64,000 bases of DNA from Lathyrus oleraceus (taxonomy: Eukaryota > Streptophyta > Magnoliopsida > Fabales > Fabaceae): positions 429,574,319 through 429,638,318 of the forward strand of contig NC_066584.1 in assembly GCF_024323335.1 (NCBI RefSeq), written 5' to 3'. The notes below the pieces were generated by a model. The model had not been told where the DNA came from and searched no databases. It saw nothing but the letters and a program-made list of their open reading frames with translations. A program made the translations under genes and the position numbers. Below are positions 6,116 through 32,891 of this stretch, one piece after another. How positions within the stretch are numbered: position 1 is the first letter of the stretch; every line of letters begins with the position of its first letter.

Positions 6116-7139
6116 GTTAGTTCCTAACCCCATTGAATACAATGATCCTTCTCCTTCTCCAAATTTTAAATTTCCTGTGTTTGAAGCCGAGGAGGAAAGT
6201 GATGTAGAAGTGAGTGAGGAATTGTCTCGTCTTCTGGAGCAAGATGAAAAGATTATTCATCCGTTTGAAGAACAGATTGAGCTAGTCAACTTGGGTTCCA
6301 AAGATGATGTGAAGGAAGTCAAGATTGGGTCTTGACTGTGTCCAGATGCTAAGAAGGGGTTGATTGATCTTCTTCGAGAGTATTCAGATGTGTTTGTTTG
6401 GTCCTATCAAGACATGCCTGGGTTGGATTCTGATATTGTGGAGCATAGATTGTCGTTGAAGCCAGAATGCCCGCCAATCAAGCAGAAGTTGAGAAGAACG
6501 CATCCTGATATGGCTGTGAAGATCAAAGAGGAAGTTCAGAAGCAGATTGATGTCAGTTTCCTTGTGATTGCTGAGTATCCGCAATGGGTGGCCAATATTG
6601 TGCCTGTGCCGAAGAAAGACGGAAAAGTCTGCATGTGTGTCGATTATCGAGATTTGAATAAAGCCAGTCCGAAAGATGATTTCCCTCTGCCACACATTGA
6701 TATGTTGGTAGACAATACTGCTAAATTCAAAGTCTTTTCATTTATGGATGGATTTTCCGGATATAATCAAATCAAGATGGCACCCGAGGACATGGAGAAG
6801 ACCACATTCATTATACCCTGGGGAACATTATGTTATAGAGTGATGCCTTTCGGTCTAAAGAATGTTGGTGCAACTTACTAGAGAGCAATGACTACTCTTT
6901 TTCATGATATGATGCATAAAGAGATTGAAGTGTATGTCGATGACATGATTGCTAAATCAATTTATGAAGAAGAACATGTTGAGCATTTGTTGAAGTTATT
7001 CCAGCGTTTGAGGAAGTATAAACTTCGCTTGAATCCCAATAAGTGTACTTTTGGTGTTCGTTCTGGTAAGTTGTTGGGCTTTATTGTCAGCGAGAAGGGT
7101 ATTGGAGTTGATCCTGCCAAGGTCAAAGCAATATAAGAG
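6116..7139 (+). pseudogene. E1 reverse transcriptase
   Basis: RT makes cDNA from element RNA. Domain landmarks in order: acidic N-terminal segment (6130-6330), FVWSYQDMPGLD, PIKQKLRR, the palm segment VPKKDGKVCMCVDYRDLNKA, SFMDGFSGYNQI, VMPFGLKNVGATY and catalytic YVDD at 6933-6944, then LNPNKCTFGV. In-frame stops are at 6334 (TGA), 6879 (TAG) and 7134 (TAA). The last two stand where relatives have Gln, consistent with C-to-T changes. There is no frameshift within the domain. Typical Tat RT length. Non-functional because of the stops. Confidence 0.9.
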
Positions 7140-7740
7140 ATGCTTGCGCCCAAAACTGAGAAGCAAGTCAGAGGTTTTCTCGGCCGCATGAATTATATTT
7201 CCAGATTCATTTCCCACATGACTGCCACATGTGCGCCTATATTCAAGCTTCTTCGGAAAGATCAGTCTTGTGATTGGACTGAAGATTTCCAGAAAGCATT
7301 TGATAGTATCAAAGAATATTTGCTTGAACCTTTGATTTTGTCACCACCTGTTGAAGGAAGACCGTTGATCATGTATTTGATTGTGCTAGAAAATAGTATG
7401 GGTTGTGTTCTTGGTCAGCAAGATGAGATTGGAAAGAAAGAATTTGCAATTTACTACCTCAGTAAGAAGTTCACCGACTGTGAGACTTTGTATTCTATGC
7501 TTGAGAAGACTTGTTGTGCATTGGCTTGGGCTGCTAAGCGTCTGTGCCAGTATATGTTGAATCATACCACTTAGTTGATATCCAAAATGGATCCAATCAA
7601 GTATATATTTGAGAAGCCTGCTTTGACTGGGAGAATTGCTCGTTGGCGGATGTTGTTATCAGAGTATGATATCGAATATCGATCTCAGAAAGCGATTAAA
7701 GGTAGTATCTTGGCTGACCATTTGGCTCACCAACCAATTG
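7140..7740 (+). pseudogene. E1 first RNase H (retroviral type, degenerate)
   Basis: Follows the RT connection (QVRGFLGRMNYISRFI, then PIFKLLRKDQ). The RNase H fold reads PLIMYLIVLENSMGCVLGQ, FAIYYLSKKFTDCE, then YSMLEKTCCALAWAAKRL. The usual first acidic residue (LYLDVSD in most gypsy elements) is Ile/Val here. Loss of the first RNase H active site is known in Tat elements, whose second aRNH is thought to supply the activity, so this need not be decay. One stop at 7572 (TAG, where Trp is usual) is decay. Confidence 0.82.
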
Positions 7741-8290
7741 AAGATTATCAGTCAGTGCAGTATGATTTTCCAGATGAAGAGATTTTGTACTTGAAAATGA
7801 AAGATTGTGATGAACCATTGCTAGGAGAAGGGCCAGAACCTGGTTCCCGTTGGGGCATGGTATTTGATGGAGTTGTTAATCAATATGGAAATGGAATTGG
7901 GGCAATAATCATTACTCCTCAAGGCACACATTTACCATTTACAGCTAGATTGACTTTCAAGTGTACAAACAACATGGCAAAATATGAAGCTTGCATTATA
8001 GGGCTTGAAGAGGCCATGAATCTCATAATCAACTATTTGGATGTCTTCGGTGATTCTGATTTGCTTGTGAATCAGATCAAAGGAGAATGGGAGACAAATC
8101 AACCCGGTTTAATACCATATAGAGATTATGCGATGAGGATTTCAACTTTCTTTACAAGGGTTGAATTTCATCATATTCCACGAGATGAGAACCGGATGGC
8201 AGATGCTCTTGCAACGTTGGCATCAATGATTGTAGTAAAGTATTGGAATGAAGTTCCCAATCTATCTGTAATGTGTCTTGGTAGGCCAGC
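7741..8290 (+). pseudogene. E1 second RNase H (archaeal type, aRNH)
   Basis: An extra RNase H between the first RNase H and integrase is diagnostic of the Tat lineage. Active-site positions are visible: Asp in WGMVFDG, Glu in KYEACIIGLEEA, Asp in VFGDSDLLVNQI, and Asp/Asn in HHIPRDENRMADALATLAS. It shares one frame with its neighbours from 7575 to 8582 and is itself unbroken. A closely related copy, on the minus strand, is in E3 (37601-38467). Confidence 0.87.
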
Positions 8291-9565
8291 TCATGCGTTT
8301 GCTGTTGAAGAGATCAAAGACGAGAAGTCGTGGTATTATGACATCAAGTGTTTTCTCCAAAGTCATATTTACCCGCCTGCGGCATCTTTGAAAGATAAGA
8401 AGACTTTGAGAAGATTAGCCGGTAATTTCTACTTGAATGGTGATATATTGTACAAGAGAAGCTTCGACATGGTTTTGCTCAGATGCGTGGATAGACACGA
8501 AGCAGACTTGTTAATGACCGAAGTGCATGAAGGTTCCTTTGGTACTCATTCCAATGGACATGCAATGGCAAAGAAGATGTTGTGAGCAGGTTACTATTGG
8601 CTGACAATAGAATTTGACGGTTGCAAATTTGTGAAGAAATGCCACAAGTGTCAAATTTATGCTGATAAGATTCATGTTCCTCCGACACTATTGAATGTTA
8701 TCTCTTCTCCATGTGGGGAATTGATATGATTGGGATGATTGAGCCCAAAGCTTCGAATGGACATCATTTCATTTTGGTGGCAATTGACTACTTCACAAAA
8801 TGGGTTGAAGCGGCATCGTATGCAAATGTAACCAAGCAAATCGTTGTAAGGTTTATCAAGAATCAGATCATATGTCGTTATTGTGTGCCAAGCAAGATCA
8901 TTAATGATAATGGATCGAACTTGAAAAACAATATGGTGGAAGCTCTTTGCAAAGACTTCAAGATTGCACATCATAATTCTTCTCCCTACTGACCCAAGAT
9001 TAATGGGGTTGTTGAAGCTGCGAACAAGAACATCAAGAAGATTATCCAGAAGATAGTTATCACGTACAAGGATTGGCATGAGATGCTCCCATTTGCTTTG
9101 CATGGGTATCATACATTTGTCCACACTTCAATAGGGGCAACCCCTTTCTCTCTCGTTTATGGTATGGAAGAAATGCTCCCCGTAGAGGTTAAGGTTCCTT
9201 CGTTATGTGTGCTCATGGAAGCCAAATTGACTGAAGCTGAATGGTGTCAGACCAGGTTTGATCAGTTGAATTTGATAGAAGAGAAGAGATTGACTGCCAT
9301 GTGTCATGGTCAGTTATATCAGCAGAGAATGAAGAAAGCTTTTGATAAGAAGGTCAAACCTCGAGTGTTCAGAGAAGGAGACCTTGTGCTCAAGAAGATT
9401 TTATCGTTCAAGCCAGACTCAAAAGGAAAATGGACTCCCAATTATGAAGGCCCATATGTTGTTAAGAGAGCCTTTTCAGGCGATGCATTGATTCTTCCAA
9501 CTATGGATGGTGAAGATTTCACTCGTCTTGTGAATGCAGATGCAGTCAAGAAATACTTCGCCTAA
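8291..9565 (+). pseudogene. E1 integrase
   Basis: Zinc-binding HHCC region: EVHEGSFGTHSNGH then KKCHKCQIY. The catalytic DDE core has Asp in MWGIDMIG, Asp in IINDNGSNLKN, and Glu in INGVVEAANKN. The C-terminal region runs MKKAFDKKVKPRVF, then KWTPNYEGPYVVKRAFSG, ending at 9565. Breaks: TGA at 8583 and TGA at 8990, both where Arg (CGA) would be expected, and a frameshift near 8700 between the zinc region and the first Asp. No chromodomain, as expected for Tat. Confidence 0.88.
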
Positions 9566-9585
9566 AAAAATATATATAAAAGAAC

Positions 9586-9756
9586 AACTCGCTAAGTTGA
9601 AAACCCGAAAGGGCGGCTTAGGCAAAAATGAGCGTCTCGGTGGATTGAAAACCCGAAAGGGCGATCCAGGCAAAAATTAGAGACATAAAACAGAAAGAAT
9701 TTCCCGATAAGTTGAGTACCCCACCTTGGGGCAACTTATGCAAAAATTAGGGATTA
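9586..9756 (+). other. Candidate three-hairpin RNA module downstream of integrase (E1)
   Basis: Three successive hairpins lie just after the integrase stop, each followed by GCAAAAAT. Hairpin 1: CTAAGTTG (9592) with CGGCTTAG (9614), top stem CCC-GAAA-GGG. Hairpin 2: outer GTCTC (9634) with GAGAC (9680), inner GGATTG with CGATCC, top stem again CCC-GAAA-GGG. Hairpin 3: outer TCCC (9702) with GGGA (9750), inner ATAAGTTG (9707) with CAACTTAT (9732), top CCCC with GGGG. Paired arms differ between hairpins but still pair. The same module is in E2 at 21762-21932. The pairing is directly visible; an RNA-level role is inferred. Confidence 0.7.
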
Positions 9757-11214
9757 TGGCAAGTAACTGCATTCTTCTGATCTTCAAGGTTTTGAAAACT
9801 TGTTTGAGCACAAGGGTTGACATCAGTTCATCTCCAGCAGCGGTCAAGAGCACAATGGATATCAAGAGTTGGTAGAAGGATTAAGGATCATTTGTATTCA
9901 ATGTAACCCTTTTCCATGTAAATTACCATTTTCAACTTTGTAAAATCTATGGATTCTTGTCATTTACAGACTACCATCCTATTAAATAAAGTTGAGCCTT
10001 TGTCCAAATTGTTTCTACTCTTATTTTACTTCAGCCAGTAGTTTTAAATTTTATTATGATCATTTTGAAATTAAACTTTTAAATAAAAATCAATTTTCTT
10101 TAATATATAAAAGCAAGAACTTTTCCAAAACAAGTAAAAAGAATATCAACAGCATTTCGGTAAAAAGCAAGTCCTTAAGTGTGAAGCATCTGAGGTTCCC
10201 CAAGCAATTAACTCTTAGGGTATCCCTATATGTTTGTGTTGATTCAGTTCCTCGGCGGAGTGTTCGATCCCCAGTGGAGCTTCTTTCTTTATCCCCAGCT
10301 GAGTTGGTTGCGGCGTGTCCTTGTCTCCAATAGAGTTTCGGCCTTCCTTAGTGGAGTTCGTATTTCCTCAACAGGTGGATCGTCATCAGGAGATGTTTTG
10401 ATCTTCCCCAGTAGATCGATTTGGTGTCCCCACTAATCGTCGTATCTTTGCTCCCCAGTCATAGTTTCCTCCTGGTGCCTGAGCAGCTTTTTTGTTCTTC
10501 CCCAGTAGGGTTGTCTCCCATTTTATGGTGTTGACCTAAAATTCCCCACAGATTTGGATGTTCTATCCTTAGCAAATCTCCTCCGTCTTTCCCCAACCAA
10601 GGTTGAGCCTTTGGGATTTTGATCTCTCTGTTCTCCAGTAGTTTGTCTCCATGATTTATGGATTGGCCGAGGATTGCATCGGTGGTTCAATTTCTTTGCG
10701 ACACCTTTTGTATTCTTTGTGATCGTCTTTGTCAGCATAATCATCATATACATATACATTCATATAATTTCATAATTGCATATTCACATATCTGATTAAA
10801 TTGTTGGTTTGAGACTCTCATTCCCCGTATGGCGGTACTTTATCCCCATACAAATCTGGTGTTTGTCCTCCTTCAACCATAGAGTGTCAGCCCCTTAAGC
10901 AGAAAGACTTTAACCTTTCTCTGTTTCCCCACTGAGTTTGTTTCCTCGTGGATGATTGTTATTTCAGTTTCCTCTCCAGTAAATTTTCTGGATGGAATTA
11001 CTCCCCTTGAGTTATGTCCTCAATGGGTTGAGGCTTGATTGACCGTTTTCTTTCTAACTCTTACCTAGATAGATATCTTGGTCCCCTAAGAATCTATTAC
11101 CCAGTAACTGGTAAAATCCTTCTTAGCTGGTAGTTTGTTACTTCTTGCCCATTACCCGGTAAAAGTACCCTTTTTCTCCTCAGCAGAATCCCTAGTGGAT
11201 CTATTCCTCGAAAA
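9757..11214 (+). other. E1 3' untranslated region, non-repetitive part
   Basis: No gene is supported here. The strand is T-rich with many short ccccag / ctcccc words at irregular spacing, which also characterise the E2 region 22300-24700, so it is homologous Ogre 3' UTR. A short conserved piece near 9760-10000 (GCAAGTAACTGCAT, then TCTATGGA.TCTTG) recurs in E2 at 21936-22145. I see no protein domain in any frame. Confidence 0.7.
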
Positions 11215-12115: not shown

Positions 12116-12605
12116 TCCTCTCTGTCGGATCTTTATTATCTCCTTACCCAGTAACAGGTAGTAGATAATAGATTTCTACTCCTCCTGTGTTGAAGTTCTT
12201 TTTTCTCCTCATTTGAGTTGAGTGCGCATTTCCTTAGTGAAATCGTTGTTCCCCTGCATGAGTCGAATGCTTCAGTTTTTATCCTGATTTATTCGTATCC
12301 CCTGCAGATGTTATTTGTTTCCCCGGCTGATCCTTTCATTTTGTATGGAATTCCTCAAGTCCCTCAGTAGTTTTAAGTCGTAGCTTGGCCTACGCATAAG
12401 TCCCTTTTTATCCCCTAGAGTCTCTGTCTCCCCGGTGAGTTTTCCTTATGGAATGCATTGTGCTCCTATGGACTTTTGGTCTCTCTGACTTCTTTTCCTT
12501 TATGGAAATATCTCCCCACAGAACACTTTCTTTTGCATTCATATCAAATGCATCATGAGGTCTCTTAGGGACCAAAATTTGTTTCTCTATGTTGTTATTT
12601 AAGCC
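12116..12605 (+). other. E1 3' UTR distal part
   Basis: No gene. The last part (GCATCATGAGGTCTCTTAGG, then GACCAAAATTTG near 12550-12580) matches E2 at 26310-26345 almost exactly, showing that the sequence just before the PPT is constrained or recently shared. Confidence 0.65.
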
Positions 12606-12672
12606 CATTCTACTGATTCGATCCGAAGATTTTAACCTTCACCTCCTCAGTTAGAATGTCCTTAAATAGGGG
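12606..12672 (+). promoter_or_regulatory. E1 pre-PPT hairpin and polypurine tract, split by E2
   Basis: CATTCTACTGA (12606-12616) pairs with TCAG-T-TAGAATG (12647-12658), leaving one bulged base. The PPT follows as AAATAGGGG. A PPT is the RNase H-resistant primer for plus-strand synthesis and normally abuts the 3' LTR. Here the tract is cut after AGGGG (12668-12672) by E2; its last four bases CAGC and the LTR resume at 32897. The same hairpin and PPT occur intact in E2 (26367-26438). Confidence 0.8.
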
Positions 12673-15600
12673 TGTAAGACCCCAATTTTGGGCCCTAAGA
12701 TCCCTCATGGTCCATATCATTCATATCATGGCCTCAAGGATCATTGCATGCCCTAGCTTTCCTCCTAGTAGGTTGGTTGCCTTGTGGGTTGTTTCTTGAT
12801 CACCAAGCATACCTTGCATTTGTATATCTTTGCTTTCATATGTTTATTAACCAAAAAGTACAGAAATATTGTCAGTCTAACCTTGTTGCTTGCAGTTGAA
12901 GCAATCATCAGTAATTAGGTCAAAGATAGTCAACAGTCAGTCAAAGCAATGGATGGTGGCCATTCTTGCAGAATTTGGACACCATGATCAATAATCAAAA
13001 GTTCATACATCTTGGGACATCATTTGAAGTCAAGGTCTCAAGGAATTAGGGTTTGGATTTCATCAGAAGTGGTCCAGTCATCCAAAACCCTAGAAAAGTC
13101 AAACTTGGTCAACTGTGGATTTAATCAATGTTTTGATGGATAGAATTGATTTGAAGGAGCTCATTCATGCTTGTACAAGCCTCATCTATCATGCCAAACC
13201 TCATCATGGAAGAAAATCAAGTAAAATCAGAAATTTCCAGAAATAGAAAGTGGACCTGTAATTTTAACTGCCAAAAATGGAAACTTCTTGATCTTAAACT
13301 TACATCATGATACAAGCTTCAAATGAATTTTTGCCCAACATGAAAGTTGAAGATCTTGTTCTCCCATTTTCAAAAAGTCCAAGAACTCTCAAATCCCATG
13401 TGTGGTTGTCAAGATATGATCAAATCATTTTCACCAATTTTTGAACTTCAAAGAGCCATATCTCTCAAACCATAAGGCCAAATTTGGTGGGGTTTTTTCC
13501 TACAAACCACATTTTTCATCCCCTTTCCAAAAATATAAATTTCATTCATCAAAACCCTACCATTCAAAATGGCATTTTTGGACCTTTTTCATTTAAATTC
13601 AAAGTTTGACCAAACTTTGACTTTTTGATTCTTTGACTTTTTCTTGATTTGGCCAATTGGGAAATGTTCCATATATCATTTGTGATTTGCTCCAAGCTTA
13701 AAATCATAACCATACCACCATTTTACTACCATTTTGACACAAAGTGCATGATTTGGTATTTTTGCAAATGGGAGCATATAAGCAAAACAAGGACAGCAGT
13801 TCTGCAGCACACACAAAACAGCAAAAGCAAGGTCTGTATACAGCTGGTTTTAGGCCCATTCGACCACAAGCTTTACACCCTCCATTTCACTTGTGCACAT
13901 AATTAGCAATTGGCATTTTGATTCATAAAATTAAACTTGGATTAGCATGTGATAACGTGAGCTTAAACAGATGAATATAAGTGCATTTTTCTGCCATTGG
14001 CCAACCCTAGTTTTGCAGCCACCAACCAGAACACTCTCCTCTCTCTCAACTGCATTTTGGCTCGAGCAGCATTTTTACCAAAAACCCTCAAAGCACACAA
14101 GAAACCCTTGCTTCCTCCATCATCTAAACATCATTTGGGAGTGTTTTTGAGCATCATTTATCAACTGGAACCTTCCCTTTTGTTCTGCATCTTCAAGCAT
14201 ACAACAATGGCAGCTTGTGGTTTGGACACCTTCATGCTTTGCTGAGCTAGAAAAGCTTCATCATCCATCACTACAGAGCTTAAAGGCCAACTGTTTGAGT
14301 TCGAATCAACTAATACAACCCTGTTTCACATTGTCTTCAAAAACAAGTAAGCAATTCGACCTCAATCATTTGCCATGCCATGATGTATTTATGAAAGATC
14401 CTTTTGAGCTGGTTCTAACAAACTATAGCATGCTTAATTTGGTTGTGTTTTGGCAAAGAAATCTTGATTTTCATTTTTGTGTGCAAATACATTTTCTATC
14501 GATTTGTGTTGTTCATGATGATTTAATGAAAATGCACACCATATTCTTGTTGCTGGAGGTTTAATGATGATGTTAGCATGTTTGATTGTGTTTTCTGGGC
14601 ATTTGAAATTTTTGAGATGCATGATGATGAGTTTTTGCTGCTGCTGTTAAACACCACTCATGTCCAGAAATTCCCATGGATATACTTGTTTTGTTGTATG
14701 CTGTTTGTCTGTTTGCTGTGTGAACATCACCATGAATGCCTTGCTGTTTGTCTGTTGGTGTTGGAATGATTTGTTTTGAAGTTGGATAATGAACATGCCC
14801 TGCTGCCATGAAAACCTAACATATTTCCAGAAAAATCCAGCTTCATAGATGCATGTGTATTGGTTGCTGCTTTTGTTCTTGTTGCATGATAACATCATTT
14901 CTAATGCCCTGCTTTTGAATGGTGCTTTGTTTCGAATTTTGTTTATTAAAGATGATGGTGCTTGCTGCTATGCTGAGTATGCCCAGGAATTTTGCTTGAA
15001 TGCTGTATTGGTTTGTTGCTGTTTAGATGTACATGAGTATGGTTGCATCAATGTCTTTTTGTTTGTGTGCCTTTGCTGGGATTCATTTTTGATCGATTTC
15101 ATGAAGCTGAACATGAAGCCATGCTGTTGTTCTAAACCCTAAGGGTTTATGGTTGAAACCCAGAAAACTCGAATGCCATTGGCTGTTGTTGCCCAATTTA
15201 CTGTTTCATTGAGGGAGAGCCAATCAGGTTATTTCATTTGGCTGTGTGAAACGCGGGCGTTTTGATTAGTGAGCCCAGAATTACAAATTTGCCACGGTTG
15301 ACTTTGCTTTGACCACTATGCCATGCCTTTTGTTCATATTGCATCCAAATATCACTCAACTTCACAAATTCATTTCTCTTTCACATTTTTATCCAAAAAT
15401 CATGCAATTTTTTCCATCATGTTCATGAATGTGTCCTCTATTTTATTGTGAATTTTAATTAATTTTCCATTGGCTGGATTTTTAATGATAATTGATTTCC
15501 CAACATGTATGCCAAAATGATACCTTGTGCCATTCCTATTGTGAAATTGTCATGTTGTATCCATTGAGCTTGAAACTTTTTGTGGTGAAACTAGACACAT

Positions 15601-17269
15601 TGACCTTCATTTCCATATAAAGTTTGTGCATTTATCATTTGTGGATTGAGAGTTATGATTTTCTGAAGTTATGTGTTACATTTGGTGCTATATGAATGAC
15701 ATGCATTTTCACAAATTTTGTTCACATGCTTCCTTACATCCAAATGACCTCAAATTTTGCATGAATCATCTATCACATGTCTAGTTTGTGTATGAATTTT
15801 CTTGGAATTAATCTTACTGTTTTCCATTTTATTGTGAATTTTCTTCCATGCTTAGTCATTTGTTGACTTTTTGTGCTACACATTGCCAAATCTTTTGTGA
15901 AATTCTCATATCTTATTGTATGACCATGAAATTTCATATGTGATAACTAGACATCTTGCGCTTTGCATTGGTGTTAATCTCATTCATTTCTCTTCTGTTT
16001 TCAATTTGATATGATTTTTTGAAGTTGACCCATGCTTGTTGACTTTCACCATGCTTGCTTGAATTTGGTTTGACTTCATGATTTTACTTGACTGCCTTCC
16101 TCTCATCCAAATGCTATGAAATTTTACATGTCTACCATGCTAGATGTTAGGATTGAGTGTGATTTATTTCAAGATTTTTGAGATTGTTTGAGTTGACTTT
16201 TGAAAGAGGTCTTGCTGTTGACCTATTTGTGCTCTTTCTTGCCATGCTTTGCACTCTTTTGCATATGAAATGACAATGATGCATGATTTGATTATGAATC
16301 CAATTGAGATTGCTTATTTAAATGTTTGAACATGAATTGGGTTGACTTTCCTTTGCTGTTTGACTTTTTTCTTTCACCTTTGACCCTAGGCTAGTCCTAG
16401 TGGTCTTTTGAGCTTACAATTGAGCTATTGTTTCAGGTTAAGCACCAATGCCCCAAAGACCTTTCAAATTTGATTGAGTTAAAATTGTTTATCATGTGCT
16501 AACCTTTTGTTTTGTAGGTGTGACTCACATACTTGAGTCTTTGTGCCTTGCACAATTGGTCCCTCTGTGGTTGACTATTGGTTCATTTCCTTTTGATTTT
16601 GATTGTTGACTTGTTTACTAATGAGTTTGACTTTTTCAGGTACTTTAGTTGCTTAAGTTCTTTGAACTTGCTTGCTTTGCTATTTAGCAATTGCTTTTGA
16701 GGTATAATTACTTCTTCTTCATGTAGTCTGGAGACCCGGCCTGTTATTTGACCGGGCAAACTGTCTGAAGTCCTCCTTAAGAGGCAATGCCTGTGTGTGT
16801 TTAAAATTGTCCCAAGCAGGAAAAGTCCTTCAAGTAAGGCAATTGGTGGAAGGTAGGGATAAGCAATATATCCCCCACTATTCAGTGTGTCCTCTCTTTG
16901 CTCCCATTACATGGTTGAGGCATTGAGATAAAAACCCAAGATCTAATCGAGTCAATAATGTGGAGAGAGCTCCATCTTTCTGAGCTCCCATACTTTCTTA
17001 TATGCTCTCCCTGATCAGGGATAGAAGCAATGAGGCACACCCCTCATTCTCCTTTTCATCTGCTTCACCTTAGCCTCTCAATGGCAAGGTTAAGAGCGAC
17101 ATTTACCCATTACAGTGGACTTTCATAGTCAAACCCTCTTGTGTGAGCCCCCCTTGTTTGGCTATAGAGTGTGCTGTTTGATTCTCATTAACTGTTTGAA
17201 TGCTTCATATGCACTTGCTTGCTTGTATGTTATGCATTTATCATCATCAATTGCCATTAGTGCATGATC

Positions 17270-18110
17270 ATATCATTTGTCTGTGTGACTTTTATCATTG
17301 TTGTTTGCCCATTGAGGACAATTGTAAGTCCATTGCTTTGGCATTTGCTCCTATGATATGGAAGGATAGAGTGTAAGACCTCATTGGTCACTCATATCTT
17401 CTGTCTTATCTGTTTGTATGTGAGGACACAGTTATAAGTCCCTGTAAGTTGGCATCTGTTATCCTGTGATCATAATATGATCTGTTTGATGTTGTATGTG
17501 AGGTTGCAGTTATAAGTCCCTGTAAGTTGGCATCTGCTTTCCTGTGATCATAGGTTGTTTATCTGTTTGTGTGAGAGGTTGCAATTGTAAGTCCCTGCAA
17601 GTTGGCATTTGCTCTCCTATGATCACATGTTGTTTTGTTTGTTTGTATGTGAGGATACAACTGTAAGTCCCTGCAAGCTGGCATTTGTATTCCTAGGATC
17701 ATACTGTGGAGGTTAGAGTAAGCCCAGATAGATTGGCATCTGACCTCCATGTTTTGTTTTTGTTTGTTTATGTGAGGTTGCAACTGTAAGTCCCTGCTAG
17801 TTGGCATTTGCTTTCCTATGATCATATGTTGGATATTGGTATAAGTCCAGACAGATTGGCATCCGGTATCCAAGTTTCATTTTGTTTTAGGAGATTAGTG
17901 TAAGACCATTGAGTGGCATCTGATATCCTGTTCTGTTTTAGGAGACTGGTGTAAATCCATCTATTGGTATCCGGTATCCGCTTTTTATGTCTTTGCCTGT
18001 GGAGATTAGTGTAAGACCATTGAGTGGCCTCTGACATCCCGTTTTGTTTTAGGAGATTGGTATAAGACCATTGATTGGCATCCGATATCCGCTTTTCTTT
18101 TGCTTTGTTT
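17270..18110 (+). repeat. Minisatellite-like repeats inside E2 5' LTR
   Basis: Repeating sentences of the form TATGTGAGGTTGCA, TAAGTCCCTG.AAGTTGGCAT, CCTATGATCATA (units about 75-85 bp) change into shorter units GGAGATTGGTGTAAG, ATTGGCATCCGGTATCC (about 60 bp). The same array lies in the 3' LTR (31036-31876), in the E4 LTR (48410-48930) and reversed in the solo LTR (52745-53345), so it is ancestral to this LTR group. Confidence 0.8.
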
Positions 18111-18888
18111 GTTTATTATTATCCATTGCTATTCCAAAGGACACCCTTGAATCATCTGCTATATGATTTCAAGAAGTGAACCTTCTAAGAAGTTTTACAA
18201 TCCATCCCCATCCATTCATCATTCATTATGTCCTAAACCTTTTCACACTTTGACTTCAAACTTGACATAAGTATTGTGCAAACATCTTCATGTTTTCTAA
18301 CTAAAAACCTGGACCCAAGTCCTTGACTTTTTTCAAATTCCATTTCATAATACTTCTTTTGAATCAATCTTAATCATACTTTGACTTCATTTTCATAATC
18401 ACAATCAATTAACTTCACTCATTCACTTGTTTTGGCTTTGTCCATTGTTAATCTTTTCATGCATTAGCCATAGGTTTCAATTATCATTGTGGTTGATGTA
18501 AATCTTGCCTATCCTTAGTGAGTCGACAGTAAGACTTCCGTACTGAAAACAGGGCTAACCCCTCTAGTACGTCGAAGCTATCCTCGCATGGTGGATGTTG
18601 TTTTTGGTCGAGTGTTCTCCCATTGATAATGAAAAGCCTCAGTGCTTGTGTTTAAAACTGAATCCACCAACTTTTGGAAATCTTTTAGCCGAACTACGGC
18701 GTTTTGATCCTTACCTTTGATGGAAGGTACGTAGGCAGCGGGTTCATCCGTTCGAACACAAAAATAAATAAAACCCAATAACCCAATAATAAAATTTGTA
18801 CATTCTTTTCTCATCATCCCAATCATGTTTGCACAATACACATGTCATAACAAATAACAATTTAGCATAACAAGTGTGAAAAGGGCTC

Positions 18889-19060
18889 CCTAGGAGTACC
18901 TAGGACGTAGTGGGTGCCTAACACCTTCCCATTACGTAATTTACCCCTTACCCAGAATCTCTGATCTTTTTATTAGTTTTCTACGTGTAAAACTTCTTAG
19001 GCTTTTGTTCGCTTTTTAGCCAGTCCTTTGGATAAATAAAAGTGCGGTGGCGACTCGAAA
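18889..19060 (+). promoter_or_regulatory. Highly conserved block near LTR end (hairpin, polyA signal, PBS-like decamer)
   Basis: Contains CCTAGGAGTACCTAGG (18889-18904; stem CCTAGG/CCTAGG, loop AGTA), then GCCTAACACCTTCCCATTACG, an AATAAA hexamer and GTGGCGACTC near 19050, which equals the first ten bases of the PBS context. The block is recognisable in all Ogre-like LTRs here: 32655-32826, 37377-37555, 39478-39660 (reverse), 49697-49870 and 51805-51990 (reverse). The AATAAA suggests the 3' processing signal; the rest is unexplained. Confidence 0.75.
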
Positions 19061-19131
19061 TTTCAATGTATCTCTTAGCTTATGATTTAATCGATAGATC
19101 ATATAGCGACGAATACACCGCCACAGAAAAG

Positions 19132-19182
19132 TGGCGACTCTGCTGGGGAGATGTCACAGAAAAGTGGCGACTCTGCTGGGGA
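19132..19182 (+). promoter_or_regulatory. Tandemly duplicated primer binding site (E2)
   Basis: TGGCGACTCTGCTGGGGA occurs at 19132-19149 and again at 19165-19182, within a 33-bp direct repeat that begins ACAGAAAAG. The PBS is where the tRNA 3' end primes first-strand synthesis; the sequence complements a tRNA ending in GCCA, and Ogre elements are reported to use tRNA-Arg. E3 and E4 have only one copy. Confidence 0.9.
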
Positions 19183-21379: not shown

Positions 21380-21719
21380 GTTGACTGATGCTGAATGGAT
21401 TCAGAGTCGTTACGACCAGTTGAATTTAATTGAAGAGAAGCGATTAACTGCCATGTGTCATGGTTAGTTATATCGGCAGAGAATGAAGAAAGCATTCGAC
21501 AAGAAGGTCAAGCCTCGTGTGTTCCGAGAAGGCGACCTTGTGCTCAAGAAAGTTTTGTCTTTCGCGCCCGATTCCAGGGGCAAGTGGACTCCAAACTACG
21601 AGGGTCCATATGTTGTTAAGAGAGCCTTTTCAGGCGGAGCTTTGATGCTTACAACAATGGATGGGGAGGATTTCACTCGTCCTGTGAATTCAGATGCAGT
21701 TAAGAGATACTTTGCCTAG
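21380..21719 (+). pseudogene. E2 integrase C-terminus
   Basis: Reads LTDAEWIQSRYDQLNLIEEK, one stop (TAG at about 21465 where E1 has Gln), then QRMKKAFDKKVKPRVF and GKWTPNYEGPYVVKRAFSGGA, ending AVKRYFA before the stop at 21717. It aligns to E1 9220-9565. The DDE catalytic core and zinc finger are missing, so it cannot integrate anything. Confidence 0.88.
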
Positions 21720-21761: not shown

Positions 21762-21932
21762 GCTCGCTAAGTTGAAAACCCGAAAGGGCGGCTTAGGCAA
21801 AAATGAGCGTCTCGGTGGAGAACCCGCGAGGGTAATTCAGGCAAAAATTAGAGACTTGAAAAAAAAGAATATATTTGCATCCCGCTAGATTGAGTACCTC
21901 ACTCTAGGGCAATCTAGGCAAAAATTAGGGAT
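21762..21932 (+). other. Candidate three-hairpin RNA module (E2 copy)
   Basis: Hairpin 1: outer GCTC/GAGC (21762, 21805), inner CTAAGTTG/CGGCTTAG, GAAA loop. Hairpin 2: outer GTCTC (21809)/GAGAC (21851), top stem CCC-GCGA-GGG, which swaps E1's GAAA for another GNRA-type loop; its inner stem is shortened. Hairpin 3: outer ATCCC (21879)/GGGAT (21928), inner CTAGATTG (21885)/CAATCTAG (21910), all eight pairs kept although three differ from E1. Each is followed by GCAAAAAT as in E1. Confidence 0.72.
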
Positions 21933-24824
21933 TTGGCAAGTAACTGCATCCCGACAAGACTTTCTGGTTCATCAGTCGTCATTTCGTCAGAGGATTCTCG
22001 ATTCGTCGTCAACTGAAGCTTCGGATACATCGAGATTCAAATTGGTAGAGAAAGGATCATTATGTTCAATGTAGCCCTCTTCCAATATATATCACTGATT
22101 TCAAATTTGTACAGATCTATGGAGTCTTGCCATTTGCAGGCTACCATTCCATCAAATCAATTTGAGCTTTTTATCCAATTATTTGCACTCTTATTTGTTT
22201 CAATTCAACAAATGTTTTGCATGTTTTAAATTGATAAAATGTCATTGTTTTAAACAAATCAAATTTTTCAAATCTTTGTTTTAAACAAAGTGAACATTCA
22301 CAAGATTGAAAGGATACTCAAGAATATCTCAGTGCTCTCCCAAGGGTGGCATGATTTCCAACAGGTAAGACATTGGTTCATATTCCTGGTTTGGTTGTAT
22401 CTTCTTTCTCTGGATCTTTGTTGGGGCTGTTCCTCAGACAGAGTTGTTGTTGGGGCTGTTCCCCAATACAGTCGCAAGTGATTTGTTGTTGAAGACTTCG
22501 CTTTTCTCCAGCAGCAGTTTTCCCAGCATGGGTGTTTCTTGAGAAGTTTCGGCGGTTGATGGTTTGTCATCTTGGTGCCCCGTCACTCTCTCCAGTGGGT
22601 CGTACCCCGGACTTTATTTGTCTCCTCAGCACAGTCATGAGTATAACTGATTGATTGATACTCCCCTCTGAGTCGCGAGTAGAACTGTTATTAATAGCCC
22701 CACCAGGGTTGCAAGTGGAGTTGTTACCTCTTCTCCCCATGCAGTGTGCCAGCAGGATTTGTCTGTTTCCTCAGCACGATCGCTTTCTTTTTGAAGATTC
22801 GGTAAGTCAGTGGTTTGATACCCGGTACTTTACCCTCTCCCCGGCGAAGTCGTCTGCGGAATTGTTGCTGTCTCTCCATCAGAGTTTTTCTCCTCAGCAG
22901 AATAGGATTTATTTTCCTATTCAGTGGTTGATTGGGTTGATATCCCAGTGTATTTGCAACCATCTTTTCCTCAGCTTAGTCTGCAGAGTGCTTGTTGTGG
23001 CAGTTTTGCCTGTTGAATACTCCTTCAATCCCCGATGTGGTCGGATGATGGCTCTAGCCTCCAGTGAACGGATTGATTTCCTGACTGTTTGTGATCCCCA
23101 GTAGAGTGGCTTATATTGCAGAATCTACTTGTTGTGATCAATTTGCTGTGTATATTCTCCCAAGTGGAGTGGTTCGTTGCAGAACCTACTTGTTGATCTG
23201 TCCTCCCTCAGTGGGTTGTTCCCCAAGAGAGTAGTCGACAGTTTTCCCCAATAGAGTTGCTTATGCAGTTAGATTCTATTTGGATGATATCATTCTCCCT
23301 CAGTGGGTTGTTCCCTAGTGGAGTTGTGTGGATTTGCTTCTACAGCAGTTTGTGCAATGCATCTTTTGTTTCTCAGTTGACACTGGGATCCCCTGCAGAT
23401 ATACTTTGGGACCTCTCTTGTTCCTCTACAGATTTGTCTTGGTGGCTGCTTTGCCCGTTGTGACTTTCTGTACCCTGTTGGGTTGTTTCCTGATATCTCT
23501 GTTTCTCTGCTTCTTCAGCAGTACCTGCAGATCTTTGCTTTACAGCACGTAGATCTCCGCAGATTGGCTCTCCAGCTGGTTTTTCCCCTGGAAATATAAT
23601 ACCGGACGTTTGGTTCCTGAACCTGTTTGTGTTAGAATTGTCTGTTTTGTCAGCATTCATCAAACATAAATCACGCATATTCATGCATATTCATAAAACA
23701 TTCAGATATTCATGTCGCATTGTTTGCCATATATCTTTTGTTTGTCGTGTCTCCTGCTATGGTGATATAGATCTCTTTACCGATCTCCCCAAGCAGATGT
23801 CGGGTGTTTAAAATCTCTCCATATAGAGTCAACCCCATAAGCAGAAAATGTTTGTCTTTCCTTCTGCAGTTCCCCACTGAGATATATCCTCGTGGATGAC
23901 GGTTTCTTCCGTTTCCTCCCAACACATATATTGGGATGGATTTTCCTATTTGAGTTACATCCTCATTAGGACGTGTCTTTATTCAGTCTGTCTTTTCGGA
24001 TTATCCCCGAATCGGCTATTTGTCAAATGTCTTGTGCTTCCCAGTGGGTTGTTCCCCAGCGGAATGTTTTGGGCCTCTGCCTACAAACCAGCAGTTGTAA
24101 GTCCTATCTTTCCTGGCTTTCTTAACAGAATTTGTGGTTATACACCTTTTATTCTCCAGCCAGAGTTTTGGTTTTCTACTTACTCCTGGTAGTTGTAAAT
24201 CCTATTTTCCTGCTCTTCAGCAGTTTGCGGTTTGTTATAAACCCTATTTTGGTTTCCCGTGCGGATTTGTGATTTGTTCTATCCCCACGCGGAGTTGTTG
24301 GTCTTCTACCCCGTATTCGGTAGATGTAAACCCTAATTTTTGTGGTTATCTTCATCTAGTCTTTGATGTTGATTTTCCTTTGCTTATATAAGTCGCTCAG
24401 ATCAGCACTTATATCCCTAGCAAGACTTTTGCGGATAATTGCCGTATGCTAGCAATTTTATCCCCAGTGGGTCTTTTCACCGTATGCTAGTGATTTGTTC
24501 CCCGGATCATTGGTTGTTTACCAGTGCATCCCCAGCTAGTCTTCTGTCGATAATTGCCGGATGCTTGCAATCTATCCTCAGCAGATCACCTTTCATTTAC
24601 CCTTCTGTTGGTAATGTCTGTTGCTCCTTTTGATTGGTCATCATTATATACCTATTCTGGTATCCCGATGCCTTTCTTTTCGGGTTTTTATCCTTAAACA
24701 ACCCAGTAACCGGTTCAGGATAATTTTCCTTGCGAGGTTATTATTCACGGTCTGCCGGTAATGAATAATATATCTCATGCGCTCTTTAGTTGGAATCCTT
24801 TGTTGATTTTCCCCAGCTGAGCAA
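21933..24824 (+). other. E2 3' UTR, unique and diffusely repetitive part
   Basis: No protein domain in any frame; open frames of 60-150 codons here are chance openings in T/C-rich DNA. Recurrent words (CCCCAGTGGGTTGTTCCCC, GTTGTTCCC, CTCCTCAGCAG) give a diffuse low-copy repeat structure. From 24710 on, ATTATTCA-CGG-TCTG-CCG-GTAA-TGAATAAT forms a 8+3-bp hairpin, repeated near 25673. Confidence 0.65.
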
Positions 24825-26366: not shown

Positions 26367-26438
26367 CATTCTACCGCGTCGAGATGAAGATTTCTAAACT
26401 TCATTTCTCCGGCTAGAATGACCTTAAATAGGGGCATC
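26367..26438 (+). promoter_or_regulatory. E2 pre-PPT hairpin and polypurine tract
   Basis: CATTCTACCG (26367-26376) pairs with CGG-C-TAGAATG (26410-26420), with one bulged base as in E1; an inner ATGAAG/CTTCAT stem lies within. The PPT follows as AAATAGGGGCATC, ending directly at the LTR start at 26439. Confidence 0.85.
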
Positions 26439-29400
26439 TGTAAGACCCCAATTTTGGGCCCTAAGATCCCTCATGGTCCATATCATTCATATCATGGCCT
26501 CAAGGATCATTGCATGCCCTAGCTTTCCTCCTAGTAGGTTGGTTGCCTTGTGGGTTGTTTCTTGATCACCAAGCATACCTTGCATTTGTATATCTTTGCT
26601 TTCATATGTTTATTAACCAAAAAGTACAGAAATATTGTCAGTCTAACCTTGTTGCTTGCAGTTGAAGCAATCATCAGTAATTAGGTCAAAGATAGTCAAC
26701 GGTCAGTCAAAGCAATGGATGGTGGCCATTCTTGCAGAATTTGGACACCATGATCAATAATCAAAAGTTCATACATCTTGGGACATCATTTGAAGTCAAG
26801 GTCTCAAGGAATTAGGGTTTGGATTTCATCAGAAGTGGTCCAGTCATCCAAAACCCTAGAAAAGTCAAACTTGGTCAACTGTGGATTTAATCAATGTTTT
26901 GATGGATAGAATTGATTTGAAGGAGCTCATTCATGCTTGTACAAGCCTCATCTATCATGCCAAACCTCATCATGGAAGAAAATCAAGTAAAATCAGAAAT
27001 TTCCAGAAATAGAAAGTGGACCTGTAATTTTAACTGCCAAAAATGGAAACTTCTTGATCTTAAACTTACATCATGATACAAGCTTCAAATGAATTTTTGC
27101 CCAACATGAAAGTTGAAGATCTTGTTCTCCCATTTTCAAAAAGTCCAAGAACTCTCAAATCCCATGTGTGGTTGTCAAGATATGATCAAATCATTTTCAC
27201 CAATTTTTGAACTTCAAAGAGCCATATCTCTCAAACCATAAGGCCAAATTTGGTGGGGTTTTTTCCTACAAACCACATTTTTCATCCCCTTTCCAAAAAT
27301 ATAAATTTCATTCATCAAAACCCTACCATTCAAAATGGCATTTTTGGACCTTTTTCATTTAAATTCAAAGTTTGACCAAACTTTGACTTTTTGATTCTTT
27401 GACTTTTTCTTGATTTGGCCAATTGGGAAATGTTCCATATATCATTTGTGATTTGCTCCAAGCTTAAAATCATAACCATACCACCATTTTACTACCATTT
27501 TGACACAAAGTGCATGATTTGGTATTTTTGCAAATGGGAGCATATAAGCAAAACAAGGACAGCAGTTCTGCAGCACACACAAAACAGCAAAAGCAAGGTC
27601 TGTATACAGCTGGTTTTAGGCCCATTCGACCACAAGCTTTACACCCTCCATTTCACTTGTGCACATAATTAGCAATTGGCATTTTGATTCATAAAATTAA
27701 ACTTGGATTAGCATGTGATAACGTGAGCTTAAACAGATGAATATAAGTGCATTTTTCTGCCATTGGCCAACCCTAGTTTTGCAGCCACCAACCAGAACAC
27801 TCTCCTCTCTCTCAACTGCATTTTGGCTCGAGCAGCATTTTTACCAAAAACCCTCAAAGCACACAAGAAACCCTTGCTTCCTCCATCATCTAAACATCAT
27901 TTGGGAGTGTTTTTGAGCATCATTTATCAACTGGAACCTTCCCTTTTGTTCTGCATCTTCAAGCATACAACAATGGCAGCTTGTGGTTTGGACACCTTCA
28001 TGCTTTGCTGAGCTAGAAAAGCTTCATCATCCATCACTACAGAGCTTAAAGGCCAACTGTTTGAGTTCGAATCAACCAATACAACCCTGTTTCACATTGT
28101 CTTCAAAAACAAGTAAGCAATTCGACCTCAATCATTTGCCATGCCATGATGTATTTATGAAAGATCCTTTTGAGCTGGTTCTAACAAACTATAGCATGCT
28201 TAATTTGGTTGTGTTTTGGCAAAGAAATCTTGATTTTCATTTTTGTGTGCAAATACATTTTCTATCGATTTGTGTTGTTCATGATGATTTAATGAAAATG
28301 CACACCATATTCTTGTTGCTGGAGGTTTAATGATGATGTTAGCATGTTTGATTGTGTTTTCTGGGCATTTGAAATTTTTGAGATGCATGATGATGAGTTT
28401 TTGCTGCTGCTGTTAAACACCACTCATGTCCAGAAATTCCCATGGATATACTTGTTTTGTTGTATGCTGTTTGTCTGTTTGCTGTGTGAACATCACCATG
28501 AATGCCTTGCTGTTTGTCTGTTGGTGTTGGAATGATTTGTTTTGAAGTTGGATAATGAACATGCCCTGCTGCCATGAAAACCTAACATATTTCCAGAAAA
28601 ATCCAGCTTCATAGATGCATGTGTATTGGCTGCTGCTTTTGTTCTTGTTGCATGATAACATCATTTCTAATGCCCTGCTTTTGAATGGTGCTTTGTTTCG
28701 AATTTTGTTTATTAAAGATGATGGTGCTTGCTGCTATGCTGAGTATGCCCAGGAATTTTGCTTGAATGCTGTATTGGTTTGTTGCTGTTTAGATGTACAT
28801 GAGTATGGTTGCATCAATGTCTTTTTGTTTGTGTGCCTTTGCTGGGATTCATTTTTGATCGATTTCATGAAGCTGAACATGAAGCCATGCTGTTGTTCTA
28901 AACCCTAAGGGTTTATGGTTGAAACCCAGAAAACTCGAATGCCATTGGCTGTTGTTGCCCAATTTACTGTTTCATTGAGGGAGAGCCAATCAGGTTATTT
29001 CATTTGGCTGTGTGAAACGCGGGCGTTTTGATTAGTGAGCCCAGAATTACAAATTTGCCACGGTTGACTTTGCTTTGACCACTATGCCATGCCTTTTGTT
29101 CATATTGCATCCAAATATCACTCAACTTCACAAATTCATTTCTCTTTCACATTTTTATCCAAAAATCATGCAATTTTTTCCATCATGTTCATGAATGTGT
29201 CCTCTATTTTATTGTGAATTTTAATTAATTTTCCATTGGCTGGATTTTTAATGATAATTGATTTCCCAACATGTATGCCAAAATGATACCTTGTGCCATT
29301 CCTATTGTGAAATTGTCATGTTGTATCCATTGAGCTTGAAACTTTTTGTGGTGAAACTAGACACATTGACCTTCATTTCCATATAAAGTTTGTGCATTTA

Positions 29401-32400
29401 TCATTTGTGGATTGAGAGTTATGATTTTCTGAAGTTATGTGTTACATTTGGTGCTATATGAATGACATGCATTTTCACAAATTTTGTTCACATGCTTCCT
29501 TACATCCAAATGACCTCAAATTTTGCATGAATCATCTATCACATGTCTAGTTTATGTATGAATTTTCTTGGAATTAATCTTACTGTTTTCCATTTTATTG
29601 TGAATTTTCTTCCATGCTTAGTCATTTGTTGACTTTTTGTGCTACACATTGCCAAATCTTTTGTGAAATTCTCATATCTTATTGTATGACCATGAAATTT
29701 CATATGTGATAACTAGACATCTTGCGCTTTGCATTGGTGTTAATCTCATTCATTTCTCTTCTGTTTTCAATTTGATATGATTTTTTGAAGTTGACCCATG
29801 CTTGTTGACTTTCACCATGCTTGCTTGAATTTGGTTTGACTTCATGATTTTACTTGACTGCCTTCCTCTCATCCAAATGCTATGAAATTTTACATGTCTA
29901 CCATGCTAGATGTTAGGATTGAGTGTGATTTATTTCAAGATTTTTGAGATTGTTTGAGTTGACTTTTGAAAGAGGTCTTGCTGTTGACCTATTTGTGCTC
30001 TTTCTTGCCATGCTTTGCACTCTTTTGCATATGAAATGACAATGATGCATGATTTGATTATGAATCCAATTGAGATTGCTTATTTAAATGTTTGAACATG
30101 AATTGGGTTGACTTTCCTTTGCTGTTTGACTTTTTTCTTTCACCTTTGACCCTAGGCTAGTCCTAGTGGTCTTTTGAGCTTACAATTGAGCTATTGTTTC
30201 AGGTTAAGCACCAATGCCCCAAAGACCTTTCAAATTTGATTGAGTTAAAATTGTTTATCATGTGCTAACCTTTTGTTTTGTAGGTGTGACTCACATACTT
30301 GAGTCTTTGTGCCTTGCACAATTGGTCCCTCTGTGGTTGACTATTGGTTCATTTCCTTTTGATTTTGATTGTTGACTTGTTTACTAATGAGTTTGACTTT
30401 TTCAGGTACTTTAGTTGCTTAAGTTCTTTGAACTTGCTTGCTTTGCTATTTAGCAATTGCTTTTGAGGTATAATTACTTCTTCTTCATGTAGTCTGGAGA
30501 CCCGGCCTGTTATTTGACCGGGCAAACTGTCTGAAGTCCTCCTTAAGAGGCAATGCCTGTGTGTGTTTAAAATTGTCCCAAGCAGGAAAAGTCCTTCAAG
30601 TAAGGCAATTGGTGGAAGGTAGGGATAAGCAATATATCCCCCACTATTCAGTGTGTCCTCTCTTTGCTCCCATTACATGGTTGAGGCATTGAGATAAAAA
30701 CCCAAGATCTAATCGAGTCAATAATGTGGAGAGAGCTCCATCTTTCTGAGCTCCCATACTTTCTTATATGCTCTCCCTGATCAGGGATAGAAGCAATGAG
30801 GCACACCCCTCATTCTCCTTTTCATCTGCTTCACCTTAGCCTCTCAATGGCAAGGTTAAGAGCGACATTTACCCATTACAGTGGACTTTCATAGTCAAAC
30901 CCTCTTGTGTGAGCCCCCCTTGTTTGGCTATAGAGTGTGCTGTTTGATTCTCATTAACTGTTTGAATGCTTCATATGCACTTGCTTGCTTGTATGTTATG
31001 CATTTATCATCATCAATTGCCATTAGTGCATGATCATATCATTTGTCTGTGTGACTTTTATCATTGTTGTTTGCCCATTGAGGACAATTGTAAGTCCATT
31101 GCTTTGGCATTTGCTCCTATGATATGGAAGGATAGAGTGTAAGACCTCATTGGTCACTCATATCTTCTGTCTTATCTGTTTGTATGTGAGGACACAGTTA
31201 TAAGTCCCTGTAAGTTGGCATCTGTTATCCTGTGATCATAATATGATCTGTTTGATGTTGTATGTGAGGTTGCAGTTATAAGTCCCTGTAAGTTGGCATC
31301 TGCTTTCCTGTGATCATAGGTTGTTTATCTGTTTGTGTGAGAGGTTGCAATTGTAAGTCCCTGCAAGTTGGCATTTGCTCTCCTATGATCACATGTTGTT
31401 TTGTTTGTTTGTATGTGAGGATACAACTGTAAGTCCCTGCAAGCTGGCATTTGTATTCCTAGGATCATACTGTGGAGGTTAGAGTAAGCCCAGATAGATT
31501 GGCATCTGACCTCCATGTTTTGTTTTTGTTTGTTTATGTGAGGTTGCAACTGTAAGTCCCTGCTAGTTGGCATTTGCTTTCCTATGATCATATGTTGGAT
31601 ATTGGTATAAGTCCAGACAGATTGGCATCCGGTATCCAAGTTTCATTTTGTTTTAGGAGATTAGTGTAAGACCATTGAGTGGCATCTGATATCCTGTTCT
31701 GTTTTAGGAGACTGGTGTAAATCCATCTATTGGTATCCGGTATCCGCTTTTTATGTCTTTGCCTGTGGAGATTAGTGTAAGACCATTGAGTGGCCTCTGA
31801 CATCCCGTTTTGTTTTAGGAGATTGGTATAAGACCATTGATTGGCATCCGATATCCGCTTTTCTTTTGCTTTGTTTGTTTATTATTATCCATTGCTATTC
31901 CAAAGGACACCCTTGAATCATCTGCTATATGATTTCAAGAAGTGAACCTTCTAAGAAGTTTTACAATCCATCCCCATCCATTCATCATTCATTATGTCCT
32001 AAACCTTTTCACACTTTGACTTCAAACTTGACATAAGTATTGTGCAAACATCTTCATGTTTTCTAACTAAAAACCTGGACCCAAGTCCTTGACTTTTTTC
32101 AAATTCCATTTCATAATACTTCTTTTGAATCAATCTTAATCATACTTTGACTTCATTTTCATAATCACAATCAATTAACTTCACTCATTCACTTGTTTTG
32201 GCTTTGTCCATTGTTAATCTTTTCATGCATTAGCCATAGGTTTCAATTATCATTGTGGTTGATGTAAATCTTGCCTATCCTTAGTGAGTCGACAGTAAGA
32301 CTTCCGTACTGAAAACAGGGCTAACCCCTCTAGTACGTCGAAGCTATCCTCGCATGGTGGATGTTGTTTTTGGTCGAGTGTTCTCCCATTGATAATGAAA

Positions 32401-32891
32401 AGCCTCAGTGCTTGTGTTTAAAACTGAATCCACCAACTTTTGGAAATCTTTTAGCCGAACTACGGCGTTTTGATCCTTACCTTTGATGGAAGGTACGTAG
32501 GCAGCGGGTTCATCCGTTCGAACACAAAAATAAATAAAACCCAATAACCCAATAATAAAATTTGTACATTCTTTTCTCATCATCCCAATCATGTTTGCAC
32601 AATACACATGTCATAACAAATAACAATTTAGCATAACAAGTGTGAAAAGGGCTCCCTAGGAGTACCTAGGACGTAGTGGGTGCCTAACACCTTCCCATTA
32701 CGTAATTTACCCCTTACCCAGAATCTCTGATCTTTTTATTAGTTTTCTACGTGTAAAACTTCTTAGGCTTTTGTTCGCTTTTTAGCCAGTCCTTTGGATA
32801 AATAAAAGTGCGGTGGCGACTCGAAATTTCAATGTATCTCTTAGCTTATGATTTAATCGATAGATCATATAGCGACGAATACACCGCTACA
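26439..32891 (+). repeat. E2 3' LTR
   Basis: 6453 bp, the same length as the 5' LTR, ending CCGCTACA followed by the duplicated target AGGGG. It contains the same minisatellite-like repeats (about 31036-31876) and the conserved end block. Such low divergence between LTRs, identical at insertion, marks a very recent insertion. Confidence 0.95.

Follow-up and report, generated by a model that had tools for sequence, protein, structure and literature searches.

Does the short stretch behind the integrase frame of a pea (Lathyrus oleraceus) retrotransposon, in which three similar hairpins follow one another, form a selected RNA structure, and what might such a structure do for its element? The stretch lies in the window, a sequence of 64,000 nt of pea DNA that carries two related host elements, here called E1 and E2. 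A protein of pea (P0001) matched the integrase tail of E1 at 100%, and related integrases outside the legumes were matched in Theobroma and Gossypium.

Host elements and anatomy of the hairpin array

The domains of E1 follow in the order RVT_1, RT_RNaseH, RVT_3, and rve, that is, reverse transcriptase (RT), RNase H, second RNase H, and integrase core. PMC6317226 names as a mark of Ogre, shared with Retand, an additional RNase H (aRH) placed after the first one and ahead of the integrase, as found here. By this domain order E1 is classified as a Ty3/gypsy retrotransposon of the Ogre/Tat type, as the original prediction had assumed. The interior of E2 has no counterpart of E1 6209-9227, which comprises most of the region from RT to integrase; it still has the integrase tail, interrupted by an in-frame stop, together with the final stop and three hairpins. 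Between the array and the LTR lies a non-coding interior of 2.9 kb (E1) to 4.5 kb (E2). The E1 interior abuts the LTR at 12673, with CCTTAAATAGGGG before TGTAAGACC, the same as before the E2 3' LTR (12600-12690 and 26370-26456). Because the E1 interior passes straight into the LTR at this point, the two elements seem to have one LTR in common, in the order LTR, interior, LTR, interior, LTR. The putative primer-binding-site word AAAGTGGCGACTCTGCTGGGG occurs twice behind the E2 5' LTR, 33 nt apart (19128-19181); for Ogre, PMC2206039 gives a primer binding site complementary to tRNA-Arg.

Table 1. Positions in the window of the integrase ends, LTRs, primer binding site, and hairpins of E1 and E2.
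Feature	Position	Strand	Description
E1 integrase, C-terminal part	8993..9565	+	ends KKYFA + stop TAA (9563-9565); core domain in preceding frame
E1 hairpin 1	9588..9632	+	inner TAAGTTG/CGGCTTA; bulge AAAA; CCC-GAAA-GGG, then GGCAAAAAT; outer CTC/GAG
E1 hairpin 2	9633..9684	+	inner TGGATTG/CGATCCA; CCC-GAAA-GGG; GGCAAAAATTA; outer GTCTC/GAGAC
E1 hairpin 3	9700..9755	+	inner TAAGTTG/CAACTTA; bulge AGTA; TGCAAAAATTA; outer TCCC/GGGA
E2 5' LTR	12673..19120	+	starts TGTAAGACCCC; directly behind 3' end of E1 interior
E2 primer binding site word, first of two copies	19128..19148	+	
E2 integrase tail fragment	21468..21719	+	open after in-frame stop; ends KRYFA + stop TAG
E2 hairpin 1	21763..21807	+	identical to E1 hairpin 1 (45/45)
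E2 hairpin 2	21808..21855	+	5' arm shorter by 4 nt; loop GCGA
E2 hairpin 3	21877..21933	+	inner TAGATTG/CAATCTA, with compensatory changes relative to E1 hairpin 3; outer ATCCC/GGGAT
E2 3' LTR	26439..32886	+	equals 5' LTR at 6444/6448 positions

The three-hairpin array spans 9588-9757 in E1 and 21763-21935 in E2, and its first hairpin begins 22 nt and 43 nt, respectively, past the integrase stop. Each unit has an outer stem of mainly YCYC/GRGR type and an inner stem of 7 bp whose sequence varies freely while its pairing is kept. A 4-nt A-rich bulge with a short top stem is usual, and the single strand GGCAAAAAT on the 3' side hardly varies. The original prediction had drawn three hairpins with outer, inner, and top stems from the E1 sequence; all of these are present at 9588-9755, except that hairpin 1 has only a short outer stem (CTC/GAG, with one more possible pair, G-U), which the E1 minimum-energy fold lacks. 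Its other details were recovered as described, namely the shared word GCAAAAAT after the inner stem, the GAAA loop in hairpins 1 and 2, and the change of hairpin 3 between E1 and E2 from ATAAGTTG/CAACTTAT to CTAGATTG/CAATCTAG, in which three pairs are exchanged on both sides.

The E1 hairpins match each other at only 64-76%, in short stretches. Between E1 and E2, hairpin 1 is conserved at 45/45 positions and hairpin 3 at 45/64, compared with 285/341 columns in the integrase tail and 55/109 columns in 9777-9876. The folding energy of the array had a z-score of -2.06 in E1 (7/200 shuffles folded as well) and -1.38 in E2 (21/200), and single hairpins ranged from -1.08 to -3.07 on the sense strand. 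Folding energy alone is weak evidence for the array, and the case therefore rests on covariation and conservation. A covariance model built from the six window hairpins scored those same hairpins, by construction, at 57-78 bits. With both strands searched and filters off, no further match in the window exceeded 12 bits (E 0.72), and this model found no second array in E1 or E2.

Some other features of the window were noted in passing. A second conserved non-coding block follows the module at 9877-10029 (in E2 to about 22196), where E1 and E2 are alike in 116/155 columns; it is also visible in the translation of another protein match, P0217. A third Ogre-like element has, downstream of its LTR and primer site, a 277-aa frame with a DUF7745 domain (50909-51739), and L057, one of the sampled pea loci described below, has a close relative of this frame upstream of its pol. 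On the minus strand, frames at 379-1890 resemble pieces of Ty1/copia pol by eye, and two long frames of 433 and 434 aa lie at 60302-61603 and 62253-63557.

Occurrence of the array behind Ogre integrase ends

We sampled further pea DNA as 30 stretches of 10 kb (300 kb), whose round-number positions were fixed beforehand: 20 on C6, the contig of the window, and 10 on C1-C5 and C7. The covariance model detected arrays in four of the 30 stretches: L053 and L057 with three hairpins each, L054 with two, and L040 with three by the model (one at E 0.23) and four by eye. L054 had one more weak match (15.8 bits, E 0.083). L040 is divergent, in that the hairpin top is a plain A-rich loop in two of the four; it keeps the stem, GGCAAAA, and the outer stem. 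Its four inner stems are all different and all paired (TGGAC/GTCCA, CGAACC/GGTTCG, CAAGTCG/CGACTTG, and TGGACTG/CGGTCCA). Lesions occur in some units: E2 hairpin 2, in which 4 nt of the 5' arm and some of the stem are missing, L053 hairpin 1, and L054 hairpin 2.

In the window and the sampled loci, an array stood behind all five Ogre-type integrase ends (E1, E2, L053, L057, and L040), with three or four hairpins in each copy. The gap from stop to first hairpin was 14, 33, and 5 nt in L053, L057, and L040, in addition to the two window copies. An extra L053 integrase fragment on the other strand, which ends after 27 residues of the query, was left unscored. None of the six integrase ends of other lineages (L036, L043, L051, L058, and two in L060; 25-34% identity) had an array, the best match being at E 0.84 with filters off. 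The hairpin array is thus tied to Ogre elements (5/5 Ogre ends, 0/6 others), and annotators could use it to locate where pol ends in Ogre copies. L054 has an array and no upstream integrase match at E 1e-3.

Two of the other-lineage integrase ends, at L058:7404-7450 (+) and L060 about 8143-8094 (-), share the frame end VNGQRLKHYH, which we take to be Athila-like. Within about 150 nt these ends have hairpin-like words of their own, GTCGAGCTTGCGAC / GTCGAGCTTACGAC and GTGGGAGACAACCCA / GTGAGAGGCAACCCA; in this sister lineage the position may be taken by another kind of structured element (n = 2 copies).

We also searched a protein collection with the joined module peptides as query and used the best 120 of 131 matches. 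All 12 organism-assigned ORFs among the matches listed came from Medicago truncatula, and a third protein search gave six more matches, two of them already known and one from Medicago truncatula. Array DNA outside pea was sought as well: among viral contigs, 33 pattern matches had no module-like continuation by eye and a stricter pattern gave none, the genome-contig pattern gave none, and integrase searches yielded none.

Three hairpins were found in 72 of the 120 ORF strands, and neighbouring hairpins were exactly 48 nt apart in 96/240 cases and 63-70 nt apart in 88/240 (redundant ORFs from the best 120 of 131 matches are included in both counts); the E1 distances are 48 and 67. In 15 ORFs with an integrase-end anchor, the first scored hairpin lay 12-76 nt behind the anchor, where the scored first hairpin of P0202 is probably the second and the anchor of P0218 may be due to chance. 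The integrase frame continues into the module in seven of these 15, in a collection where only ORFs are detectable. P0217 carries two arrays about 580 nt apart.

Selection on pairing in the sense-strand RNA

In the window set of six hairpins (five distinct), 98.5% of the cells were paired, and the covariation score was 0.367 vs 0.235 for shuffles (0/500 as high). In this same set, further pair types were not above shuffles (480/500 as high), and the number of pairs with two-sided changes was not clearly above them (107/500). With the sampled pea loci there were 18 hairpins, 14 of them distinct, and 87 of 92 inner-stem cells (94.6%) paired in these. The 92 cells with letters comprised 77 Watson-Crick pairs, 10 G-U, no A-C, and 5 others. 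Two-sided changes occurred at all seven inner pairs, at pair 12-27 by way of one hairpin only. When whole 3' arms were swapped among hairpins, a mean of 79.8% and a maximum of 91.0% paired, so that 94.6% was never reached (0/5000); the swaps gave 22 G-U and 13 A-C per round, vs the observed 10 and 0.

A plain MAFFT alignment of all 18 hairpins gave 90.4% pairing vs 78.6% and a covariation score of 0.547 vs 0.330, both unmatched in 500 shuffles; in the hairpin alignment the 5' arm is wrongly placed in two rows (hairpin 2 of E2 and of L057). Further pair types in this set were not above shuffles (96/500). From the MAFFT alignment, RNAalifold predicted exactly the inner stem, unprompted. The outer helix had 4-6 pairs in all 18 hairpins, in each case as the best of 18 registers tried.

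The ORFs were back-translated, and hairpins were placed by the bulge, the CCC-loop-GGG, and GGCAAAAAT alone, without using the arms. Among inner cells fixed on both sides, 299/321 paired (138 unique hairpins in 83 ORFs, from the best 120 of 131 matches, counted without rows P0001-P0120). Whole-arm swaps within the reading frame gave 80.6% with a maximum of 85.3% (0/2000 as high), and slid registers gave 10-50%. Pair 7-32, for example, was A-T in 31 of the ORF hairpins and G-C in 27. The ORF counts include only rows with an anchor score of at least 21 (27 and 31 in repeats), and damaged hairpins are under-represented in them because of this threshold. The ORF rows are related to each other and, as the pea module was the query, comprise only its likeness. 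Pair 5-34, which paired in 30 and failed in 66 determined cells (threshold 21), was left out of the inner stem for both the 299/321 and the 87/92 counts; when it was included, the ORF total was 330/420, vs a shuffle mean of 69.7% and maximum of 72.5%. Outer pairs in the ORFs were mixed (paired/not: 52/19 at 2-44, 33/8 at 1-45, 8/31 at 3-43, and 33/10 at 3-45) because the register differs between hairpin types.

The bias between wobble pairs identified the strand. Cells with a single base fixed on each side in the ORFs comprised 201 Watson-Crick pairs, 43 G-U, 6 A-C, and 10 others, compared with about 75 G-U and 32 A-C in the swaps. A G-U in one strand is an A-C in the other; since G-U exceeded A-C, the selected molecule is the sense RNA. 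Both in pea DNA and in the translated ORFs, pairing was retained while the sequence changed, which bears out the proposal that the covariation reflects selection on RNA structure, and in the wider alignment, with arm swaps and slid registers as the null, the pairing was not lost in most copies. These controls exclude chance pairing. Against this null, the hairpin array of Ogre retrotransposons was shown to be an RNA structure under selection on the sense strand.

Two other accounts of the same pattern are very improbable. If the array acted at the DNA level, as inverted repeats that are bound by protein or recombinogenic and whose RNA fold is a by-product, two-sided changes would likewise arise, but DNA pairing would treat G-U and A-C alike; the toleration of G-U (43) and avoidance of A-C (6) on one strand only, together with 10 vs 0 in pea DNA, disfavour a DNA-only function. 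An account by drift and common descent alone, or by a coding tail that continues pol, is equally hard to credit. The copies are indeed related, the single-sequence z-scores are modest, some units have lesions, and the frame of some ORFs continues from integrase through the array, all of which such an account would explain; the two-sided changes at all inner pairs without any A-C and the four distinct paired stems of L040 speak against drift, and a coding tail is disfavoured by the stop ahead of the array in 5/5 copies and by the indels and stops between E1 and E2 that spoil all frames.

Candidate functions of the array

The array matched no known RNA family: Rfam 15 gave no gathering-level match in the window and only a miRNA match of E=4 at 9560-9780. 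No transport-element family was matched either in Rfam, which may not hold a family for each transport element. The parts of the literature searched contained no description of the hairpin module, of which older Ogre papers may hold an earlier mention, and the raw hairpin words were matched there only in papers on other subjects. For plus-strand priming, one of the roles put forward originally, nothing was seen in favour; what selection maintains is a group of stems rather than a purine tract.

Very probably, the array is a cis-acting element, of some kind, of Ogre's own RNA. Its retention in the pol-deleted E2 and in L054, which lacks an integrase match, suggests that it acts in cis. The E2 LTRs differ at 4/6448 positions, so few of the mutations are younger than the insertion, which would be recent. 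E2 probably moved in trans when it was already defective, with its array intact, although LTR conversion could mimic such youth; the E2 deletion appears to be older than its insertion.

By analogy, the array is quite possibly, though short of probably, an element of the constitutive-transport type for the nuclear export of intron-containing Ogre RNA. We rank this reading first because of the partly spliced Ogre intron and the transport elements of IAP and musD. According to PMC6317226, the intron that separates gag-pro from pol is spliced out of only some Ogre transcripts, and PMC12786077 describes export of mouse IAP and musD RNA via RNA transport elements. Unspliced Ogre RNA would serve gag-pro and should also be the genome; since it carries the intron, it would have to escape nuclear retention. 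RNA-binding proteins, of the host or of the element, would bind the A-rich strand that flanks the inner stem, and several hairpin units together would raise the affinity and lead to export of the intron-containing RNA. As expected of a transport element, the array is a conserved structured RNA outside ORFs and on the sense strand. To our knowledge, transport elements come from animal elements only. For RNA export of plant LTR retrotransposons, the review PMC12786077 reports that no direct study exists. The position of the array right behind the stop codon counts against export, as it fits a role in stability or termination as well. So does the continuation of the integrase frame into the module in seven of the 15 anchored ORFs, in a collection that can show ORFs only.

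Two rival roles would account for other parts of the evidence. It is rather unlikely that the array is a packaging or dimerisation signal, bound by Ogre Gag to select genomic RNA for virus-like particles. The row of several hairpins and the constant 48-nt spacing of the first two (96/240 neighbour distances) suit this role, as does retention of the array in pol-deleted E2 and in L054, which a trans-mobilised element would need; the place behind pol is left unexplained by it. Packaging signals of retroelements are usually near the 5' end, and those of retroviruses consist of several hairpins close together, a likeness to the array, which differs in standing at the pol end. Unlikely, too, is a post-termination element that would guard the RNA, with its very long 3' untranslated part, against nonsense-mediated decay or modulate pol termination. 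The distances behind the stop (5-43 nt in 5/5 copies) and behind the anchor (12-76 nt in 15 ORFs) and the 2.9-4.5 kb of non-coding interior that follow agree with it. The second array of P0217, about 580 nt on, and the L054 array without integrase indicate that an array does not always stay near the stop. A plant assay (PMC6277124) points both ways: a structured readthrough element behind the stop and a frameshift element stabilised a decay-sensitive reporter, yet protection was also given by an unstructured stretch at this position and was abolished when a hairpin was inserted there.

Taken further, the export reading would place the array in an RNA family of its own, in which plant Ty3/gypsy retrotransposons carry a transport (or packaging) element built from several hairpin modules. 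It would export intron-containing Ogre RNA via a plant factor at GGCAAAAAT-flanked stems and be present in a large share of legume Ogre copies; this fuller proposal is possible but doubtful. If such a transport or packaging family is real, legume genomes hold a vast reservoir of binding sites for a plant factor; Ogre-like elements were estimated at 20-33% of the pea genome (PMC2206039). A structure whose pairing selection maintains, at the edge of the hypervariable 3' region, points to a life-cycle step for which no player has been described, and the array of roughly 170 nt provides a defined bait for the protein involved and makes the export question testable with reporters.

Among known systems, the CTE of Mason-Pfizer monkey virus sits in the 3' non-coding part. 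Like this CTE, the mouse IAP RTE, and the musD MTE (the latter two in PMC12786077), the array is a structured RNA of a retroelement whose genome exits the nucleus unspliced, and, if it does act in cis, a cis-acting one. Unlike them, it consists of similar hairpins, 2-4 in succession, bearing the GGCAAAAAT strand, and lies in a plant element. It shares with the Rous sarcoma virus RNA stability element the place behind a stop codon and ahead of a long untranslated stretch, with such closeness to the stop in 5/5 copies; it differs as a hairpin array that is present also away from integrase, in L054 with no integrase upstream.

PMC7004042 describes the Ogre/Tat 3' region as hypervariable and rich in tandem repeats. 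The array resembles these repeats in having repeated units in the same region, whereas their sequence and monomer length vary between elements and the hairpins keep structure, order, and spacing. In E2, tandem copies with a 151-nt spacing occupy 24853-25605 in the 3' untranslated part; satellites are said, in the same paper, to arise from tandem repeats of this kind.
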